From: Anaerolinea sp.
GTDB taxonomy: Bacteria; Chloroflexota; Anaerolineae; SpSt-313
Assembly: GCA_020725765.1 (NCBI GenBank)
Contig: DYEI01000418.1
Coordinates: 1 to 32,284 of the forward strand
Length of the DNA stretch: 32,284 bases
Reading direction: 5' to 3'
Part shown: positions 22,364-32,247 of the stretch, piece by piece
How the letters are laid out: each line of letters begins with the position of its first letter
How positions within the stretch are numbered: position 1 is the stretch's first letter
Notes under the pieces: generated by a model
What the model was told of the DNA's origin: nothing
The model's database searches: none
Seen by the model: only the letters and a program-made list of their open reading frames with translations
Translations under genes and position numbers: made by a program

Positions 22364-22392
22364 TTGACATCCCCTGTCCCTTGACCTATAGT
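22364..22392 (+). promoter_or_regulatory. Sigma70-like promoter (TTGACA-17-TATAGT) for the mevalonate kinase gene and possibly the downstream cluster
   Basis: TTGACA 22364-22369, 17-nt spacer, TATAGT 22387-22392; CDS starts 22430. Confidence 0.75.
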
Positions 22393-22429
22393 GTCGCGAG
22401 GTTACTGTAATGCATACCAGGAGCCATCC

Positions 22430-23371
22430 ATGGCGGTCGGTACAGCGCCCGGCAAGGTGATCCTCCTCGGTGAGCACGCCGTCGTCTACGGGCAGCCGGC
22501 CATCGCCGTGCCGGTAACCCACGTCCAGGCCACGGCAGTCGTCGAGGATGCGCCTGCAGGCACGGGCATCACTATTGTGGCCAGGGACCTCGGGCGCCGG
22601 TTCCGGATATCCAACCGCGAGCCCCGCGGGCGGGCAGCCGCGGCGCTCGCTCGCACGGTACACAATACGCTGCGGCGCCTCGGGCGCTCCATCGACCTTG
22701 ACCTTGAGATCACTCTGTCGTCGACCGTACCCATCGGCCGCGGCCTCGGCAGCGGCGCCGCTGTAGCCACGGCCATCGTACGAGCGCTCGCGCAGCACCT
22801 CGGCGGCTACCTCACGTCCCGCGATGTGTCAGACCTCGTCTACCAGACCGAGCTGCTGCACCACGGCACGCCCAGCGGCATCGACAACACCGTCATCGCC
22901 TTCGGCAAACCCGTCTACTTCATCAGGGACCGCTGCGACGAGGTGTTTTGGCCCGGGCGACCCTTCTGGCTCGCTATCGGCGACACTGGCATCCCCAGCT
23001 CCACCCGCCGGGTCGTCGCTGATGTGCGGGACCGGTGGCAGCGAGACCGACCCACCTACGACGCACACTTTGCCGCCATCGGTGCGCTGGTAGCGCAGGC
23101 ACGTGAGGCACTGATCAAAGGCGACCTCCACGAGCTCGGCCGACTGATGATTGCGAACCAGGACGAGCTTCGGGCTATTGGCACGTCGTCAGACGCCCTC
23201 GAGAGGCTGATCGCAGCCGCTATGGCGGCCGGGGCTCTCGGCGCCAAGCTCTCCGGAAGTGGCCGCGGGGGCAACATGATTGCCCTCGTCGACGAGACGA
23301 CCAGCGATGCGGTTGCCGCGGCACTCCGATGCGCCGGCGCCCAAGGCGTGATCATCACGCGCGTCTCTTGA
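22430..23371 (+). CDS. Mevalonate kinase-like GHMP kinase
   Basis: GTAPGKVILLGEHAVVYGQPAIAVPVTHVQATAVV; SSTVPIGRGLGSGAAVATAIVRAL; HGTPSGIDNTVIAFGKPVYF; GALGAKLSGSGRGGNMIALV. Confidence 0.87.
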   Translation: MAVGTAPGKVILLGEHAVVYGQPAIAVPVTHVQATAVVEDAPAGTGITIVARDLGRRFRISNREPRGRAAAALARTVHNTLRRLGRSIDLDLEITLSSTVPIGRGLGSGAAVATAIVRALAQHLGGYLTSRDVSDLVYQTELLHHGTPSGIDNTVIAFGKPVYFIRDRCDEVFWPGRPFWLAIGDTGIPSSTRRVVADVRDRWQRDRPTYDAHFAAIGALVAQAREALIKGDLHELGRLMIANQDELRAIGTSSDALERLIAAAMAAGALGAKLSGSGRGGNMIALVDETTSDAVAAALRCAGAQGVIITRVS

Positions 23372-23437
23372 TCAGGCTGCTCCGCCGGGTGACTCACAAC
23401 CGACCGAACCCGCTCTTGTGGCTGAGAGGACCACTGA

Positions 23438-24550
23438 ATGCTTATCGGAATCGATGCCAGTCGCGCAGCAGTCGACCAGCGCACAGGCACCGAAAACTAT
23501 TCCGTCCAGGTGATCCGTGGGCTCGTTCAGGTGGGCCGGGATCACCGCTTCCGGCTGTATCTCCGGCCGTGGCCATCGCCCCCGCACGGGCTTCTCCCCG
23601 AGGGACCTCACGTACACTGGCGCAGGGTCGGACCACACCGGCTCTGGACACACGTTGGGCTGTCCCGCGAGATGCTGCGGAACCCTCCCGATGTGCTCTT
23701 TGTACCGGCGCACGTCGTGCCCATTTACCACCCGCGCGCCACCGTGGTGACCGTCCACGATATCGGCTACCGCTATTATCCTCAGCACCACACGCTGCTG
23801 TCACGCCTGTACCTGGATCTCTCCACCCGCCTGAGCTGTCGCGCGGCGAGGCGGGTAATCGCCGACTCCCAGTCCACAGCACGGGACCTCATGCACGAGT
23901 ATCGCGTTGCGCCCCACAAGATCACGGTGGTCTACCCCGGCGTCAACCCTGCGATGGCCCGCGCCGACGGGATGGCCCAGGAGGTCGTGCGTCGCCGCTA
24001 CGGGCTCGCGCGGCCGTTCCTGCTGTATCTGGGCACGATCCAGCCACGGAAGAACCTCTCGCGCCTCATCGAGGCGTTCGCCCGGCTGCCCCGTGACGTC
24101 GGGAACGTCGATCTCGCCCTTGTCGGAGGCACGGGATGGCTCGTCGGCGAGGTATTTCGCCGCGTGGGCGAGCTGGGGCTCGAGGACCGCGTCCACTTTC
24201 TGGGCTATGTGCCGGATGGAGACCTGCCTGCCCTACTCAGCGCTGCCGAGTGTTTCGTCATGCCCAGCCTCTACGAGGGATTTGGCCTGCCGGTGCTCGA
24301 GGCCATGGCCTGTGGCACGCCCGTCGTCTGCTCCGATGCCAGCTCGCTCCCCGAGGCTGCCGGGGACGCCGCGCTCTATTTCTCTCCCCACGACACCGAT
24401 GGGATGGCCGAAGCCATGGCGCGCATGCTGACGGATACCGGCCTGAGGCAGACCCTCGTTGAACGTGGCTACGCCCACGTCAGGCGCTTCTCGTGGGAGC
24501 GTACCTCATCTCAGGTGCTGGACGTCCTGGTCGAGGCGGCACGGGCATGA
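23438..24550 (+). CDS. Glycosyltransferase family 4 (GT-B)
   Basis: MLIGIDASRAAVDQRTGTENYSVQVIRGL; PFLLYLGTIQPRKNLSRLIEAFARL; FVMPSLYEGFGLPVLEAMACGTPVVCSDASSLPEAAGDAALYF. Confidence 0.94.
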   Translation: MLIGIDASRAAVDQRTGTENYSVQVIRGLVQVGRDHRFRLYLRPWPSPPHGLLPEGPHVHWRRVGPHRLWTHVGLSREMLRNPPDVLFVPAHVVPIYHPRATVVTVHDIGYRYYPQHHTLLSRLYLDLSTRLSCRAARRVIADSQSTARDLMHEYRVAPHKITVVYPGVNPAMARADGMAQEVVRRRYGLARPFLLYLGTIQPRKNLSRLIEAFARLPRDVGNVDLALVGGTGWLVGEVFRRVGELGLEDRVHFLGYVPDGDLPALLSAAECFVMPSLYEGFGLPVLEAMACGTPVVCSDASSLPEAAGDAALYFSPHDTDGMAEAMARMLTDTGLRQTLVERGYAHVRRFSWERTSSQVLDVLVEAARA

Positions 24551-25308
24551 GTGGTCCAGGGTCCGAGCAGGTGCCATACGTCCGCATACTCGGCGTGCGT
24601 ATCGACAACGTGGACCTCGCGGCGGCGGTACCCCGGCTGCTGTCCATGGCGGCCTCCGGGCGCCCGCATCATGTCGTGACCGTCAACCCCGAGTTCATCA
24701 TGATCGCCCAGCGCGACGCGGTTTTCCGCGAGGTCCTCGAGCGTGCCGATCTCGCCCTGCCCGACGGCGTCGGAATCCTGCACGCCGCGCGCGTGCTCGG
24801 CCGACCGCTCCGCGGCCGTGCCACGGGCGTCGACACCGTCCTTGCCCTCGCCGACGCCTCTGAAAAGCATCCCGTCAGCTTCTTCCTCCTCGGCGGGCAG
24901 CCTGGCGTGGCCGAGGAAGCCGCGGCACGGCTGGTCACGAGGGCACCGAGTCTGAGGATTGCCGGCACCTATGCCGGCTCCCCGCGGCCCGAGGAGGAAG
25001 ACACAATCGTGGCGCTCGTGCGCCGGGCGGCGCCCGACTTTCTCTTTGTGGCGTATGGCGCTCCACAGCAGGATCTGTGGATCGCACGCAACCTCCAGCG
25101 GCTCGGCGTGCCCGTCGCTATGGGGGTTGGGGGCGTGTTCGACTATGTCTCTGGGCGCGTCCCCTGGGCACCGGCAACCTGGCGGCGGCTCGGGTTCGAG
25201 TGGCTCTACCGCCTGATCCACCAGCCCTGGCGCTGGCGGCGGATGTTGGCGCTCCCGCGCTTCGCCCTGGCCGTCCTGCTCGCTCGACTCCGAGGCGGAG
25301 AACCATGA
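24547..25308 (+). CDS. WecG/TagA/CpsF family glycosyltransferase (GT26)
   Basis: VRILGVRIDNVDLAAAVPRLLSMAASGRPHHVVTVNPEFIMIAQRD; LADLALPDGVGILHAAR-type motif; FLFVAYGAPQQDLWIARNLQRLGVPVAMGVGGVFDYVSGRVPWAPATWRRLGFEWLYRLIHQPWR. ATGA overlaps on both sides. Confidence 0.94.
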   Translation: MSGPGSEQVPYVRILGVRIDNVDLAAAVPRLLSMAASGRPHHVVTVNPEFIMIAQRDAVFREVLERADLALPDGVGILHAARVLGRPLRGRATGVDTVLALADASEKHPVSFFLLGGQPGVAEEAAARLVTRAPSLRIAGTYAGSPRPEEEDTIVALVRRAAPDFLFVAYGAPQQDLWIARNLQRLGVPVAMGVGGVFDYVSGRVPWAPATWRRLGFEWLYRLIHQPWRWRRMLALPRFALAVLLARLRGGEP

Positions 25309-27062
25309 AAAAAGGTTGGCTGTTGCTCGTCCTGCTGGCTCTGTGCGTCGCCTTGCCCCTCACAGCGCGCGCTCAGGCTCCGGTCACCATCAACCGTTCC
25401 GAGTTCTATGTCGTGGTCCTCGAGGATGGTCGGCTCGATGTCCGCTACTCCCTCACCTTTACGGAGCACGAAGGGCGGGACCGGATCCGGGAAATCGGCC
25501 CCTTCGGGCCAGGGCACAGAATCATCTCGGCAGCAGGTCAGGGGCCCGACGGCGTCTTCACGGTCGACCTCGAGCCCGCGGGCAGCCAGACCTATGCGGC
25601 GCTCTTTGAGCATCCGACCTGGGCAGGGGGCCAGTACACCGTCACCATCCGCTATGCCATCGATCGCCCCGCCTTTGATGCCACCTTTGTCAACGGAAGC
25701 GAGTACCGCGCCCTGACCTGGGCCCCGTTCCAGTGGAGCCTGCCCATAGAGGAGGCGGTGCTCCAGTTCGTGCTCCCCATCGAGTTGCCGCCCGGTGTCG
25801 ATCGGCCCGAAGAGGTCACCGACGCCCTCGTCGATGAGAGTGGCCTGCTCGTCGGAGATACCTCAGCTTTCGACCGCTGGGTATACTTTCCGACGCCCGA
25901 CCAGGCGAGTGGCAAGCGCTGGCTCTCCCTGTACCTCCTCCGCCGAGACCTCCCGGCCAACGAGCCGCTCAGGCCAGCCTTCTACCTCCCGGCATCGGCA
26001 GTGCCGGGGACCGCCGAGACCTCAATCCCTCTCGGACCCACTGGTGCGCCGACCGCGGTGCCGCAGCCAACGACGACGGTCGTCCGTCTCACCGAAAAGG
26101 AGATCTGCCCTGCTGTAGGGGTCCTATGTGGCGCCGTCGGAGCAGTCGCCGCAGCCGTGATCGGCCTGGTCGTGGTGCTGGTGCGCCGTCGCCGCCCGCA
26201 CGTCTACGAGCCCCCGGAGATCGAGATCGAGACCTTTGAAACGCCCGGCGTCGTGCCCGACCTGGAGGCAGTCGAGGCTGCCTTCTATCTCGGAAACTCG
26301 GCCAAGACCATCGCCCTCATCGTGCTCGGCCTCGAGCAGCGCGGAGTAGTGACGATCCTCAATCGTCACCCCCTGCAGCTTGAGGTCACCCAGCCGCGGG
26401 CAGAGCTCAAACCGTACGAGAAGGCCCTGATCGATGCGATCCTCCCGGATGGCACGCTCGATCAGGCCCAGGTGAGCAAGATCATGGCGGCCGTGGCCGC
26501 GGCCGTCCGGCCCAAGGTATGGAACGCCGACCCGGCGGCGACCCGTGAGAGCTATGAGCGCCGCATTCGCGAGGCCGAGGCCGAGTACGAGCGTGAGTGG
26601 CGTGAGCGCCGCCGGCCGATGTCCTGGCCGGAGGTGGCCCGGCGGCCCTATGCCCCCTGGGTGATCATTGGCCACGCGCCAACGGCGGCAGCAGGCCGCC
26701 CCGGAGCCGGGCGGCCTGCGGAGCCTCCGGCCCTTGCCCGCGCCGCGGAGGAGGCGGTACGACCGCTGGAATCCTTCGCCAGCGAGGTGACGCAGGGCAT
26801 CGAGCGCTCGCTTTCCCGGATCGCGGAGCAGGCCGAGGCGGCCGACGCCCGCCTCTTCGGCCGCGAGAGAGCCGGGAGTGAGCAGGCGGGCTACGATGCA
26901 TGCCACTCCGCCTGCCATTCGGCCTGCCACTCGGCGTGCGTACACTCGGCCTGTCACTCGGCATGTGTGCACGACGCCTGCCATTCGGCGTGCCACTCGG
27001 CCTGCGTGTGCCACTCCGCCTGCCATTCGGCCTGTCACTCGGCCTGTGTCAGCCGGTTCTAG
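25305..27062 (+). CDS. DUF2207-like membrane protein with C-terminal Cys-His-Ser-Ala repeat tail
   Basis: Signal peptide MKKGWLLLVLLALCVALPLTARAQA; predicted beta-rich extracytoplasmic domain; TM VGVLCGAVGAVAAAVIGLVVVLVRRRR; cytoplasmic region YLGNSAKTIALIVLGLEQRGVVTIL; C-terminus YDACHSACHSACHSACVHSACHSACVHDACHSACHSACVCHSACHSACHSACVSRF. Confidence 0.85.
   Translation: MKKGWLLLVLLALCVALPLTARAQAPVTINRSEFYVVVLEDGRLDVRYSLTFTEHEGRDRIREIGPFGPGHRIISAAGQGPDGVFTVDLEPAGSQTYAALFEHPTWAGGQYTVTIRYAIDRPAFDATFVNGSEYRALTWAPFQWSLPIEEAVLQFVLPIELPPGVDRPEEVTDALVDESGLLVGDTSAFDRWVYFPTPDQASGKRWLSLYLLRRDLPANEPLRPAFYLPASAVPGTAETSIPLGPTGAPTAVPQPTTTVVRLTEKEICPAVGVLCGAVGAVAAAVIGLVVVLVRRRRPHVYEPPEIEIETFETPGVVPDLEAVEAAFYLGNSAKTIALIVLGLEQRGVVTILNRHPLQLEVTQPRAELKPYEKALIDAILPDGTLDQAQVSKIMAAVAAAVRPKVWNADPAATRESYERRIREAEAEYEREWRERRRPMSWPEVARRPYAPWVIIGHAPTAAAGRPGAGRPAEPPALARAAEEAVRPLESFASEVTQGIERSLSRIAEQAEAADARLFGRERAGSEQAGYDACHSACHSACHSACVHSACHSACVHDACHSACHSACVCHSACHSACHSACVSRF
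26901..27047 (+). repeat. Coding repeat: Cys/His-rich CHSA tetrapeptide array (49 aa, 13 Cys, 11 His)
   Basis: 10 HSAC units plus one HDAC, broken by single Val residues; synonymous codons vary between units (cac/cat, tcc/tcg, gcc/gcg/gca, tgc/tgt). Confidence 0.95.
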
Positions 27063-27074
27063 AGGATAGAGCCC

Positions 27075-28610
27075 ATGCAAGTGCGGTCACAACCCCCTGC
27101 AGCGCCCGAGAGCCTGCCTCCCACTGACAACGGCGCCTCTGCGCCTCCGCCGTGCCCGCCCACGCCCGATGCCTCCCTCGCGCGCCTGCAGCAGCTCGCC
27201 GAGAGCCTCGTCGCCCAGACGAGGGAGTGCGTCTACATCCGACCGGAGGATCGGCTCCTCATCCTGCGCCCCAACCGCGTGCACCACCTCAATCGGACCG
27301 CCGCAGGCATGCTCACCCGTCTCTATGCTCCGGGCAATCCCGATGTGCCGACAGTCCTGAGGGAAATGGCGAAGGAGTACAAGGTCCCAGAGGAGCGGAT
27401 TGCCCGGGACCTCGAGCGCCTGCTCATCACCGTGGCCGCCCTGCTCAACGATGACGTGTGCGGCGCACCTGCAGTGCGCCGTACCCCCTTTGCGAGCCAT
27501 CGGCGCGAGTTGCCGGTGCTCTCCGAGATCGCACTCACCTACCGATGCCAGAACCGCTGCCACTTTTGCTACGCCTCGTCACCTGAGCGGGGCCGCTCTG
27601 TGGCCGAGATGACCACGGCTGAGGTCTGCAGGGTGATCGACCGCATCGCGCTGGAGGCGCGCTGCCCCACTGTCTCCTTCACCGGCGGAGAGCCGACGCT
27701 CAGGGAGGACCTGCCCGAGTTGATTGCCCATGCCAAGCGCCGGCAGATGCGCGTCAACCTGATCACCAACGGCCTGCGCTGCGCCGACGAGGCCTACGTG
27801 GCCCGCCTGGTCGCAACGGGCCTGGATTCGGCTCAGGTGAGCCTGGAGGGCGGCACGGCAGCCGTGCACGATGCCATCGTCGGCCACCCCGGCGCTTTCG
27901 CCGCGACAACGCGGGCCGTCCGAGTACTCCGGGCCGCCGGCATCCATGTACACACCAACACCACCATCTGCGCCGGCAACCGGGACCATCTGGAGCAGCT
28001 CGTGACCTTTGTGCGCCGCGAGCTGGGGTCCGACTACCTGTCCATGAACATGGTCATACGCACGGGCACGGCCCTCGACCATCCGGAGATCGGCATCAGC
28101 TATCGCGAGGTTGGCACGCTCATCACAGCGGCCCAGACCTGTGCCGAGCGCGAGGGAATTCAGCTGGTGTGGTACTCGCCTCTGCCATACTGCATGTTCA
28201 ACCCCGTGCAGGCCGGGCTCGGGTCCAAGTCCTGTGCGGCGGCCGACGGGCTCCTCTCAGTGAGCCCCTCCGGCGAGGTGCTGCCCTGCTCCAGCTTTGA
28301 GCAAGGGATCGGCAATCTGCTCACGCATAGCTTTCGCAAGGTCTGGCACAGCCGTCAGGCCCGCTACTGGCGCTCCAAGTCGTTCCTTCCGCCTGCGTGC
28401 GAGCGGTGCGCCATCAAGAGCATCTGCTGCGGGGCCTGTCCCCTCTACTGGGATGAGCGGGGAGGCTTTGCAGAGCTCGAAGGATTCGCGCCCCGGCCAT
28501 CACATCTCTCGAAGCTTCGCTGGTCGATACGCCAGTGGCGCCGGCACAGCTGGGGTACCGGGCTGCTGCAGAGGCGACGACGGACGGGAGGAGGGCCACA
28601 CGATGCCTAG
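27075..28610 (+). CDS. Radical SAM/SPASM protein with N-terminal PqqD-like (RRE) domain, putative peptide/protein maturase
   Basis: PqqD-like YIRPEDRLLILRPNRVHHLNRTAAGMLTRLY...REMAKEYKVPEERIARDLERLLITV; CX3CX2C motif CQNRCHFCYA; TGGEPTLRED; SPASM CX12GX4C plus CX2CX5CX3C (CERCAIKSICCGAC). Confidence 0.9.
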   Translation: MQVRSQPPAAPESLPPTDNGASAPPPCPPTPDASLARLQQLAESLVAQTRECVYIRPEDRLLILRPNRVHHLNRTAAGMLTRLYAPGNPDVPTVLREMAKEYKVPEERIARDLERLLITVAALLNDDVCGAPAVRRTPFASHRRELPVLSEIALTYRCQNRCHFCYASSPERGRSVAEMTTAEVCRVIDRIALEARCPTVSFTGGEPTLREDLPELIAHAKRRQMRVNLITNGLRCADEAYVARLVATGLDSAQVSLEGGTAAVHDAIVGHPGAFAATTRAVRVLRAAGIHVHTNTTICAGNRDHLEQLVTFVRRELGSDYLSMNMVIRTGTALDHPEIGISYREVGTLITAAQTCAEREGIQLVWYSPLPYCMFNPVQAGLGSKSCAAADGLLSVSPSGEVLPCSSFEQGIGNLLTHSFRKVWHSRQARYWRSKSFLPPACERCAIKSICCGACPLYWDERGGFAELEGFAPRPSHLSKLRWSIRQWRRHSWGTGLLQRRRRTGGGPHDA

Positions 28611-29751
28611 GACGATGGATCTCGCCGCCTTCTGCGCCTATGTCGGGGAGCAGTGGAAGGCCGCCCGCCAGGTCTATGCCGAGATCGAAGAGGTCCAGTA
28701 CCAGTTCAACGAGATCTACCGCCAGCGGCTTGAGACATGGCAGCGTGCCCTGGCCAGGGCGGTGCCGATGCTTGCCGCCCCGGAGGCCCTCCCGCCAGAG
28801 TTGGCACAGAGCTTGCTTGAAGAGGTAGAGAAGGAGCGCAGAAGGCTCTCAGGAGAGATCGCCTCGCTGGAGCAGCAGGTCAGCGACAAACGGGTCCAGG
28901 CCGAGGCCGCAGCTGCGCAGGCCCGGGACGAGCTTGCGGCCCTCCGCAAGATGAACCCCCGCCTCGACGCCGACGAGGAGAGGATCAAGGCGCACTCTGC
29001 GGCACTGCGAGCCGAGATAGAGCGACTCGACCGGGAGATCCAAGCCGCTGGCCTGATCAGGCGGTTGCTCGGATGCAGGCGCCTCCGACGGCAGCGTGAG
29101 GAGCGCCGCAGAGAACTGGCAGCCGCAGCCGGCCAGCTGCGCCGGGTGCGCGAGGAATGGGCCGGCGCCAAGCGACGGTACGAATCCGAGCAGACCAGGC
29201 TGCACCAGCTCTGGGAGCAGGCCAGCGTCGAGGCCGCAAACCTCCAGTCACGGCTTGACTACCTCCGTGCCAACATCGAGCAGCTCGCGTGGCAGAACGG
29301 CAGCGGGCGGTGGCTTGCCAGCCTGCATGCCGTGCCAGAGGTTGCCGAACCTCTGCGCGGTGCCCTCTCACAGGTCGTCGAGCTCAACCGCGTCAAGGCC
29401 GAGTACGAGGAGGGCCTGCGCACCGTGTCCGAAGCCCTTGGGCTCCTGAAAGGTCTCGCTGAGGGGCTGGAGCGCTTCCTCAAGAGCGCCCACAAGGTCC
29501 TTGAGGAGCAGGAGCGGTATAACCTGCGCAAGCTGCGCGTCAGGGTAGCCGACACGGTACTCGGTTTTCACGCCATATGGCCGTCCTTCAGGGCTCAGGT
29601 CAGGGATGAGAAGGTTCTTGGCGCGCATCCCGCCGAGTTCAGCAGGCGGGTCCGGGCAGTCATCGGAGATAGCCTGGAGGAGTCGGCCATCGGTGCCATG
29701 TTCGAGAGCCTCGGCAACAGCCTGACCGAGGCCACGAGAGCCTGGGGTTGA
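28603..29751 (+). CDS. Long coiled-coil protein of unknown function
   Basis: Continuous Glu/Arg/Ala/Leu-rich heptad-like sequence (EKERRRLSGEIASLEQQVSDKRVQAEAAAAQARDELAALRK...); overlaps the radical SAM stop by 8 nt. Confidence 0.75.
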   Translation: MPRTMDLAAFCAYVGEQWKAARQVYAEIEEVQYQFNEIYRQRLETWQRALARAVPMLAAPEALPPELAQSLLEEVEKERRRLSGEIASLEQQVSDKRVQAEAAAAQARDELAALRKMNPRLDADEERIKAHSAALRAEIERLDREIQAAGLIRRLLGCRRLRRQREERRRELAAAAGQLRRVREEWAGAKRRYESEQTRLHQLWEQASVEAANLQSRLDYLRANIEQLAWQNGSGRWLASLHAVPEVAEPLRGALSQVVELNRVKAEYEEGLRTVSEALGLLKGLAEGLERFLKSAHKVLEEQERYNLRKLRVRVADTVLGFHAIWPSFRAQVRDEKVLGAHPAEFSRRVRAVIGDSLEESAIGAMFESLGNSLTEATRAWG

Positions 29752-29765
29752 TCGGAGGACAAGCG

Positions 29766-30257
29766 GTGAAGAAGGCTCTGGCTGTTGCGGGCATTGCGAT
29801 CTCCATCCTGCTCCTGGCCCTGGCGCTGCTCTTCCTGATTGCTGCCATGGTTAGACCCGAGCGTCTCCTCGTCGCCATGGGCCTGCTCGTCGCGGGCACG
29901 CTCCCGCTCGTCTGGGCGATCGCCACGCTGCGCCGACAGGCGGAGCTCAGCCCAGACAACCTCTCGGCCGGGATTCTGGCGCTGGCGAGCAACTCTGGCG
30001 GGGAGGTAACCGAGGCTCAGGTGCAGGCGCGGTTCCACATCCCACAGCAGATGGCATCGAGCGCCCTCGAAAAGCTGTGTGCGACTGGCCAGGCCCGCCG
30101 AGAGGTGCGCGGCGACCGCACAGTGTATGTGGTACAGGGCCTGAAACCATCGCTGGTTGTCCGTCGGTGCCCATACTGCGGCAGTAGCTTCCCGGTCAGG
30201 GAGGCTATCCGCAAGTGCCCCAACTGTGGGGCAACTGTCGAGCTCGACAAGGCCTGA
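29766..30257 (+). CDS. Small protein: two N-terminal TM helices, winged-helix-like segment, C-terminal zinc ribbon
   Basis: KKALAVAGIAISILLLALALLFLIAAMV...LLVAMGLLVAGTLPLVWAIATL; GGEVTEAQVQARFHIPQQMASSALEKLCATGQARRE; CPYCGSSFPVREAIRKCPNCGA. GTG start preceded by GGAGG. Confidence 0.72.
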   Translation: MKKALAVAGIAISILLLALALLFLIAAMVRPERLLVAMGLLVAGTLPLVWAIATLRRQAELSPDNLSAGILALASNSGGEVTEAQVQARFHIPQQMASSALEKLCATGQARREVRGDRTVYVVQGLKPSLVVRRCPYCGSSFPVREAIRKCPNCGATVELDKA

Positions 30258-30270
30258 GTGAGGAGGCACA

Positions 30271-32247
30271 TTGCGCAGGACAATTGCGCTCGCCATAGCG
30301 GGCCTGCTGCTCAGCCTGGCGTGCCTGCTGGGGGCAGCCGTGGCCTGGATGCAGTACGTCCGCGACGTACGGGGAGGCCAGGTCGCCCAGTCCACTCCAG
30401 CCCCCACAGCCACGTTAGTCGAGCCTTCCTATGACACCATCGGCGCGATTGCGGCGGCCCTCGTACCGCCGCGCGATTCGCGGCTCCTCGCCCAGCGCCT
30501 GCGCCCCTCGGTCGGACCGATCCCGCCAGTCGTCAGCTCGGAACCGCCGGGCCACCAGGTCGGAGACAGCGCACGCTTCTGGATCTCTAACTCGGATGCC
30601 CGCGAGATGTCCCAGATAACGGCTACCTTGCGGACCATGTCCCGGCACGCCGAGATCTGGGTGCAGGAGGACCTGTCGGTCAGCCCACAGAGCCTTCAGC
30701 AGGCGGCACAGCAGTTTGATGAGCAGATCTATCCCACGGTTCACCGCTACTTTGGTGCCGAGTGGAACCCGGGCATAGACGGCAACCCCCGCATTGTGAT
30801 CCTCTGCGCGCGCTTCTCCGGCGCAGATGGGTATTTCTCCAGCATGGATGAGGTCCCTCGCCAGGCGAACCCCTACAGCAATGAGCGTGAGATCATCTAT
30901 GTGAACGCCGATGCGGCTCCACCCGGGAGCAAGCACTTTGGCGCCGTCGTCGCCCACGAGTTCCAGCACATGGTCCATTACCATCTGGACCCCAATGAGG
31001 ACGGATGGGTAAACGAGGGTTGCTCCGAGCTTGCGGCCTGGCTCTGCGGCTTCGGCCCTACGGGTGCGGCCCTGTCCCTTGCGCACCAGCCGGATACCCA
31101 GCTCAACACCTGGGTTCTGAGTCCCGATGAGAGCGCCCTGCCCCACTACGGCGCCTCATATCTCTGGGTCAGCTACTTCCTGCAGCGCCTCGGGCCAGAG
31201 GCACTGAAGGCCGTCGTTGCCGAGCAGGAGAATGGCATCGCAGGCTTTGAGAGACAGCTCAACCTGTTGCCAGATGCCCCCACGTTTGAGGACCTGTTCG
31301 CCGACTGGGTGGTCACAAACCTGCTCGATGACGCCTCTCTCGAAGGAGGGCGCTTTGGTCACCAGGCCGCAGAGCTGTACCTCCAGCCGCAGACCACGCA
31401 CCGCGACCTCCCCGCCGAGGAGACGGGTACGGTAGGCCAGTACGCCACCGACTATATCGCCATCGCCCGGCAGACGGGCCCTGTCAGGATCGAGTTCGTA
31501 GGGGACCCGCAGGTGTCGGTTGTTCCGACAAGGCCTTACGAGGGGCGGCACATGTGGTGGTCCAACCGCGGTGACATGAGCAACCCCTCCCTCACGCGAG
31601 CCTTCGACCTCTCGGGAGTGCGACGGGCGACGCTGCGCTACGCAGTGTGGTACGAGCTCGAGGATGGCTGGGACTATGCCTACGTGTCCGTCTCTACCGA
31701 TGGCGGCAGAACGTGGAAGCTCCTCAGCACGCCTCACACTACGGACTATAACCCGAACGGCAACGCCTTCGGTCCGGGCTACACAGGCTTTTCTGGTCAC
31801 GAGCCGGGCAGCAACACCCGCCTGACCAGCCGGTGGGTGCGGGAAGAGATCGACCTGAGCCCCTACGCCGGCCGCGAGGTGCTGGTGCGCTTTGAGGTGG
31901 CGACCGACGATGCCGTCAACCTCCCCGGCTTTTGCATCGACGACATCTCGGTCCCCGAAATCGGCTTTGTGGATGGCGCCGAGCAAGAGGTGCCGGGCTG
32001 GCAGGCCGAGGGGTTTGTGCGCATCGACAACGTCTTGCCCCAGCGGTTTCTCGTACAGGTCATCGAGCAGGGCGACACGGTGCGTGTGCAGCGCCTCGAG
32101 CTCGAGCCCGGGCAGCCCGCCGTGCTGACGGTGGAGGGCTTTGGCCGGGGAACGCAGCGAGCCATCCTGGCCATCTCCGGCCTCACCCGCTACACGACCG
32201 AGCCCGCGAGGTACACGTACCGCGTGAGCCTGGCGGACGAGGGATAG
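30271..32247 (+). CDS. Secreted zinc metallopeptidase (immune inhibitor A M6 / M30-like)
   Basis: HFGAVVAHEFQHMVHYHLDPNEDGWVNEGCSELAAW (HExxH + downstream NEG); N-terminal signal/anchor TIALAIAGLLLSLACLLGAAVAWMQ; beta-sandwich segment VREEIDLSPYAGREVLVRFEVATDDAVNLPGFCIDDISV. TTG start with GGAGG. Confidence 0.82.
   Translation: MRRTIALAIAGLLLSLACLLGAAVAWMQYVRDVRGGQVAQSTPAPTATLVEPSYDTIGAIAAALVPPRDSRLLAQRLRPSVGPIPPVVSSEPPGHQVGDSARFWISNSDAREMSQITATLRTMSRHAEIWVQEDLSVSPQSLQQAAQQFDEQIYPTVHRYFGAEWNPGIDGNPRIVILCARFSGADGYFSSMDEVPRQANPYSNEREIIYVNADAAPPGSKHFGAVVAHEFQHMVHYHLDPNEDGWVNEGCSELAAWLCGFGPTGAALSLAHQPDTQLNTWVLSPDESALPHYGASYLWVSYFLQRLGPEALKAVVAEQENGIAGFERQLNLLPDAPTFEDLFADWVVTNLLDDASLEGGRFGHQAAELYLQPQTTHRDLPAEETGTVGQYATDYIAIARQTGPVRIEFVGDPQVSVVPTRPYEGRHMWWSNRGDMSNPSLTRAFDLSGVRRATLRYAVWYELEDGWDYAYVSVSTDGGRTWKLLSTPHTTDYNPNGNAFGPGYTGFSGHEPGSNTRLTSRWVREEIDLSPYAGREVLVRFEVATDDAVNLPGFCIDDISVPEIGFVDGAEQEVPGWQAEGFVRIDNVLPQRFLVQVIEQGDTVRVQRLELEPGQPAVLTVEGFGRGTQRAILAISGLTRYTTEPARYTYRVSLADEG

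Follow-up and report, generated by a model that had tools for sequence, protein, structure and literature searches.

Most known radical SAM maturases that combine an RRE with a SPASM domain act on short precursor peptides, often for secretion or for cofactors, and two of them, SkfB and CteB, form Cys thioethers. The Hxs (His-Xaa-Ser) system of Haft and Basu consists of a repetitive His/Ser protein and radical SAM enzymes (PMC9062424). The TVGG repeats of TvgA are the substrate of the radical SAM enzyme TvgB (PMC9062424), and repeats of a CX3D motif are modified by the radical SAM enzyme PapB (PMC9413430). The window, i.e. the whole stretch of 32,284 nucleotides analysed here, encodes a radical SAM enzyme next to a membrane protein with a Cys-rich repeat tail (Table 1). 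The component parts of this locus belong to known kinds, and their combination was not met before in our searches. The enzyme is very probably the maturase of the cytosolic tail of its neighbour, to which it would be recruited by its RRE.

Table 1. Features of the operon, with positions in the window.
Feature	Positions	Strand	Basis or remark
Predicted substrate, DUF2207-like membrane protein, 585 aa	25305..27062	+	Hydropathy, conservation, PF09972 below cut-off, AlphaFold2 model
Conserved cytosolic segment, residues 301-410, candidate RRE docking site	26205..26534	+	61% mean pairwise identity; docking putative
C-terminal tail YDAC(HSAC)3-V-(HSAC)2-V-HDAC(HSAC)2-V-C(HSAC)3-V-SRF	26892..27059	+	
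PqqD/RRE-radical SAM-SPASM enzyme, predicted tail maturase, 511 aa	27075..28610	+	ATG start, TAG stop
PqqD-like RRE domain, residues 63-117	27261..27425	+	Pfam and AlphaFold2 model (beta3-alpha3)
Radical SAM motif CQNRCHFC	27546..27569	+	
C373 and SPASM region C387, C405, C442, C445, C451, C455	28191..28439	+	Final SPASM Cys absent
Coiled-coil protein, third operon gene	28603..29751	+	Start overlaps enzyme stop; weak SMC/MukB-like coiled-coil matches
Fourth operon gene	29748..30257	+	Hydrophobic N-terminus, winged-helix-like region, Zn-ribbon

Domains and family relationships of the enzyme

Three Pfam domains were recognised in the enzyme above their cut-offs, namely PqqD (PF05402, residues 63-117, 25.6 bits vs 23.4), Radical_SAM (PF04055, residues 154-310, 89.2 bits vs 29.5) and SPASM (PF13186, residues 387-445, 35.9 bits vs 21.5). 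The AlphaFold2 model (mean pLDDT 78) displays the RRE as a beta3-alpha3 winged helix spanning residues 54-124, with strands in 54-71 and helices in 74-124. The motif CQNRCHFC provides C158, C162 and C165, three cysteines that are invariant in 40 enzymes of the HSAC clade and nine of the sister clade described below; GGEP occupies residues 204-207, and the SPASM cysteines are arranged as C387-x12-G-x4-C405 and C442-x2-C445-x5-C451-x3-C455. Six of the seven cysteines of the SPASM motif are therein present and the last is missing, no Cys being located C-terminal to C455. A preliminary description of the window had named the PqqD region, CX3CX2C, GGEP, the SPASM cysteines, the lack of the last one and the direct adjacency of enzyme and repeat protein; Pfam and sequence analysis found all of these at the places given, and the enzyme starts 12 nt downstream of the stop codon of the membrane protein (27060-27062). 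C373, which that description did not mention, is a further Cys invariant in both the HSAC and the sister enzymes. None of the 40 HSAC-clade relatives has a conserved Cys past C455 (four carry a stray, non-aligned one), and the final SPASM Cys is present in 6/9 sister-clade enzymes, so that its absence is a trait of the whole HSAC clade. Because this Cys is absent, the second auxiliary cluster of the enzyme may be atypical.

The enzyme reached no equivalog cut-off of NCBIfam, and the Pfam and NCBIfam models identify its domains without naming the protein. Its best NCBIfam matches, AhbD heme b synthase (TIGR04545, 129.7 bits) and PqqE (TIGR02109, 118.5 bits), might suggest an enzyme of cofactor biosynthesis (heme b/d1 or PQQ) that lies beside the tail gene by chance. 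However, both scores are far under the curated values of 500 and 381.35 bits, the matches span the radical SAM/SPASM part and not the N-terminal PqqD domain, and every genome with the tail also has the enzyme (see below); cofactor biosynthesis is thus refuted as a family assignment and highly improbable as an explanation. No PQQ genes were found among the neighbours examined. HxsC (TIGR03977, 93 bits vs 267.9), the sactisynthases SkfB (61 bits vs 300) and StsB (112 bits vs 625), NirJ and MoaA were also rejected on the curated NCBIfam cut-offs. Membership in a known radical SAM family of unrelated function, which the preliminary description had set against its own proposal, therefore did not emerge, the scores being below the NCBIfam cut-off of every family of known function. 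A defence system was rejected as well, since the PADLOC matches were limited to generic models for radical SAM (viperin) and coiled-coil proteins (JetC). The best fold matches in the PDB were SkfB (E 3e-12), SuiB (E 8e-10) and CteB (E 2e-9), followed closely by PqqE and anSME; the epimerase EpeE was a structural neighbour too. A sequence profile search returned SkfB and PqqE first.

The HSAC tail and its co-inheritance with the enzyme

The upstream protein consists of a signal peptide, an extracytoplasmic beta domain, one transmembrane helix (residues ~270-294) and, on the cytosolic side, a winged-helix-like domain joined through a variable linker to the repeat tail. Its score against DUF2207 (PF09972, 21.2 bits, E=3.6e-4) is under the cut-off of 24.4 bits, and its topology agrees with that family, for which PMC10457818 gives an extracellular N-terminus, a transmembrane segment and a large intracellular C-terminus. 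Since one transmembrane helix follows the signal peptide, the tail is predicted to face the cytosol, the same compartment as the enzyme. A structure match to M1 aminopeptidase covers ~240 residues and fits the extracytoplasmic beta domain only, and it was not read as enzymatic.

The tail of the window protein contains 13 Cys, 11 His, 11 Ser and 12 Ala. Comparison of 28 equal-length tails revealed a mean amino-acid identity of 94.4% between species over 52 residues, as against 28-61% for the membrane protein outside the tail and 37% for the adjoining linker. His and Cys are invariant in every unit, whereas Ser can be replaced by Asp and, at one place, Ala by Asn, and the units form blocks of 3, 2, 3 and 3, each ended by Val, with hardly any variation in this order. 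Different codons are used at 53% of the identical tail residues, including switches between both serine codon boxes. Slippage of a low-complexity sequence was rejected as the origin of the repeat because codons differ to this extent while the amino-acid sequence and block order stay fixed; purifying selection acts on the HSAC tail. Such strict conservation of a tail that AlphaFold2 predicts at pLDDT <50 suggests a substrate for an enzyme, or else a structure that carries modifications.

To follow both genes across genomes, we used an even sample of 396 genomes from the class, counting the tail by a DNA pattern for CHSACHSAC and enzyme relatives at E <= 1e-100. The tail was found in 36 and the enzyme in 38 of these genomes, and all 36 genomes with the tail carried the enzyme (Fisher 4e-49, a value overstated by the relatedness of the genomes). 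In the two enzyme-only genomes, G026 and G224, the locus is truncated, since a contig begins with the enzyme. A reversed control pattern gave one match in the 396 genomes vs 36 genomes for the real one, which indicates that the HSAC repeat is not due to chance. The system is patchy within at least five families (f16, f25, f39, f50 and f54), whose members possess both genes or neither, except for G026 with its contig end. In the 36 loci examined the two genes are adjacent and on the same strand, separated by -1 to 177 nt; in G060 and in the Armatimonadetes MAG G396 each gene is on a contig of its own, and the enzyme is preceded by kilobases of other sequence. A lack of genomic linkage between the enzyme and Cys-rich repeat proteins among relatives, the other finding that the preliminary description had held against its proposal, did not occur, linkage being essentially complete. 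Such co-inheritance fits tail modification and another obligatory partnership alike. Enzyme and HSAC tail were also detected in MAGs that bear the names of other phyla, in L036 and L155 (Armatimonadetes MAG) and in L045 (a MAG labelled Propionibacteriaceae), reflecting either horizontal transfer or mis-binned contigs.

Wherever an HSAC locus extends far enough, the third gene of the operon and the fourth, which encodes a membrane-anchored protein, nearly always lie downstream of the enzyme. Further out, a secreted MAM protein of InhA-like type (window 30271-32247), which matches an HExxH metalloprotease weakly, is syntenic in many families, and upstream genes for mevalonate kinase and for GT4 and WecG/TagA glycosyltransferases (window 22391-25308) are syntenic in several.

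A sister system with a CACACAG tail

A second clade of enzymes, 33-37% identical to the HSAC enzyme and with PqqD above cut-off in both of the two tested, has as its direct neighbour in 7/10 loci a protein whose C-terminus reads CACACACAGCACACAGGGR or a shortened version of it. The sister membrane protein is homologous to that of the window (hhalign, 467 columns, 99.9% probability, E 1e-31). Among 399 Chloroflexota genomes, with the sister enzyme counted at E <= 1e-90 and the tail by a CACACAG pattern, enzyme and tail occurred in exactly identical sets of 26 genomes, and within genus g29 some genomes have both genes and others neither. Chance adjacency was rejected on the basis of these two phylogenetic profiles and the non-adjacent gene pairs.

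The enzyme tree splits the two tail types with support of 100/100. When other SPASM proteins of the same genomes were included, the two clades still grouped together at 94/89, a moderate support on long branches. We also surveyed 14 genomes without the HSAC enzyme, taken from mixed families, adding G029, a known sister carrier, on top as a control. No membrane-protein homolog in the 14 has an HSAC tail: 11 genomes have no homolog, and the other three (G310, G379 and G185) have a CACACA tail beside a radical SAM gene. From this survey, the tree and the profile sets, tail type therefore follows enzyme type, and, the membrane proteins being homologous, a change of tail type went with the change of enzyme clade.

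The sister tail does not contain any His, and Cys and Ala are the only residues that it shares with the HSAC tail. This bears on a reading in which the HSAC tail is a metallothionein-like Cys/His metal-binding module while the enzyme acts on a different substrate or at a different step. The 11 Cys-His pairs with their regular spacing and the Zn-ribbon protein in the same operon agree with such a module, but the His-free tail is linked to a homologous enzyme with equal strictness, the scanned loci yielded no other Cys-rich candidate for a substrate, and tail and enzyme stay together where the operon is broken, which makes this reading improbable.

Several sister loci contain further genes. A gene for a class I SAM methyltransferase is found repeatedly next to the sister enzymes (L137:6222-6968, similarly in L138, L139, L141 and L143) and was not seen in the HSAC operon, and a membrane-anchored Zn-ribbon protein is also present in several of them. 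The coiled-coil, Zn-ribbon and methyltransferase genes are candidate partners. An ORF at L139:990-4406 encodes a Ser/Thr kinase with an AAA domain at its start and a CACACAG-tailed cytosolic region at its end; it may be an assembly chimera, as the join falls in the middle of the C-terminal region of the kinase protein. Degenerate PqqD/radical SAM relatives adjoin CACACAG-tailed proteins at L203:675-5791, where two tailed proteins are in tandem and the radical SAM match is under the Pfam cut-off, and at L145:7702-8841, where the relative is without SPASM cysteines.

Proposed tail modification and comparison with known systems

In both clades the type of tail goes with the type of enzyme, which lends good support to the prediction, already made in the preliminary description, that the enzyme modifies the Cys-rich tail, and we regard it as highly probable that the cytosolic tail of the neighbour is its substrate. 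The PqqD-type RRE would dock on the conserved cytosolic part of the membrane protein (residues 301-410), and the flexible linker would feed the tail to the active site, where the radical SAM/SPASM core could work along it, repeat after repeat. The sulfurs of Cys might then be joined to carbons of nearby residues as thioethers, the weakest step of the proposal. Such crosslinking would turn the tail into a stiff cytosolic appendage of a membrane protein whose extracytoplasmic part is a beta domain. We assign a probability of about 0.65 to this reading as a whole, in which the RRE docks and the HSAC repeats are modified, most likely to thioethers, to give a crosslinked appendage.

Thioethers between Cys and carbon are a common outcome when RRE/SPASM enzymes act on Cys-rich substrates, and thioether formation, the favoured chemistry, is given even odds here. 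If the chemistry is conserved between the two clades, His and Ser are not required, because Cys and Ala alone are common to both tails; shared chemistry must then target Cys, and Ala or backbone carbons may or may not take part. Ala is a documented thioether acceptor in RumC1 (PMC6779426). The same pair of residues also fits a modification of single Cys residues. In an alternative without crosslinking, the tail would undergo epimerisation of residues, or oxidation or another one-by-one change of Cys (anSME-like). The Cys invariant at every repeat in both tails and the presence of PqqE, anSME and EpeE among the structural neighbours are compatible with this alternative; however, the best folds are those of RRE-bearing RiPP maturases, of which SkfB and CteB make the thioethers mentioned above, and we consider it rather unlikely.

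In a RiPP a dedicated linked enzyme modifies a gene-encoded substrate; here linkage and co-evolution were observed, and the modification is predicted. No dedicated cytosolic protease was seen in the conserved four-gene operon, and neither a leader-core cleavage site nor a protease was identified, so the system need not be a released RiPP. We tentatively propose a separate class of post-translational modification: radical SAM enzymes would remodel, in situ, the tails that full-size membrane proteins extend into the cytosol, following at least two co-evolved codes (HSAC and CACACAG), the product perhaps being a permanent structural, metal- or electron-handling part and not a released peptide. 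The predicted substrate tail is residue-perfect across many families despite wide codon drift, and the two homologous pairs with different tail codes (HSAC vs CACACAGCACACAGGGR) make specificity testable by tail swap. If true, the proposal would offer a first molecular handle on function for part of the DUF2207-type proteins, and it would give the Chloroflexota pair a tail chemistry and purpose without earlier description in the literature searched.

The combination of enzyme and tail was absent from the NCBIfam, Pfam and PADLOC searches and from the literature searched, which included few subscription papers and in which radical SAM and DUF2207 were not found in one paper. The excerpts of DUF2207 literature covered make no mention of a Cys-repeat tail or a dedicated radical SAM partner, and the ten best of 45 literature matches (again with few subscription papers) had CHSAC in unrelated words and none of the strings HSACHSAC or CACACAGGGR. 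Of the known systems, PqqD/PqqE shares a PqqD-type RRE and a SPASM radical SAM enzyme, the RRE being separate there and fused here. The Hxs system resembles the window in its repetitive protein, but the HSAC repeat has an obligatory Cys and the HxsC model gave 93 of 268 bits. In TvgA/TvgB and PapA/PapB (freyrasin) the maturase works repeatedly on a short motif, as proposed here, whereas the motifs are others, the precursors are small and free, and the enzymes belong to other families. SkfB, SuiB and CteB, like the window enzyme, combine an RRE, a radical SAM domain and a SPASM/twitch domain, but they act on short precursor peptides, whereas here the end of a membrane protein of ~585 aa is predicted to be the substrate. 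It is this large membrane protein as predicted substrate, together with two tail codes that co-diverged with their enzymes, that is unusual in the present system.
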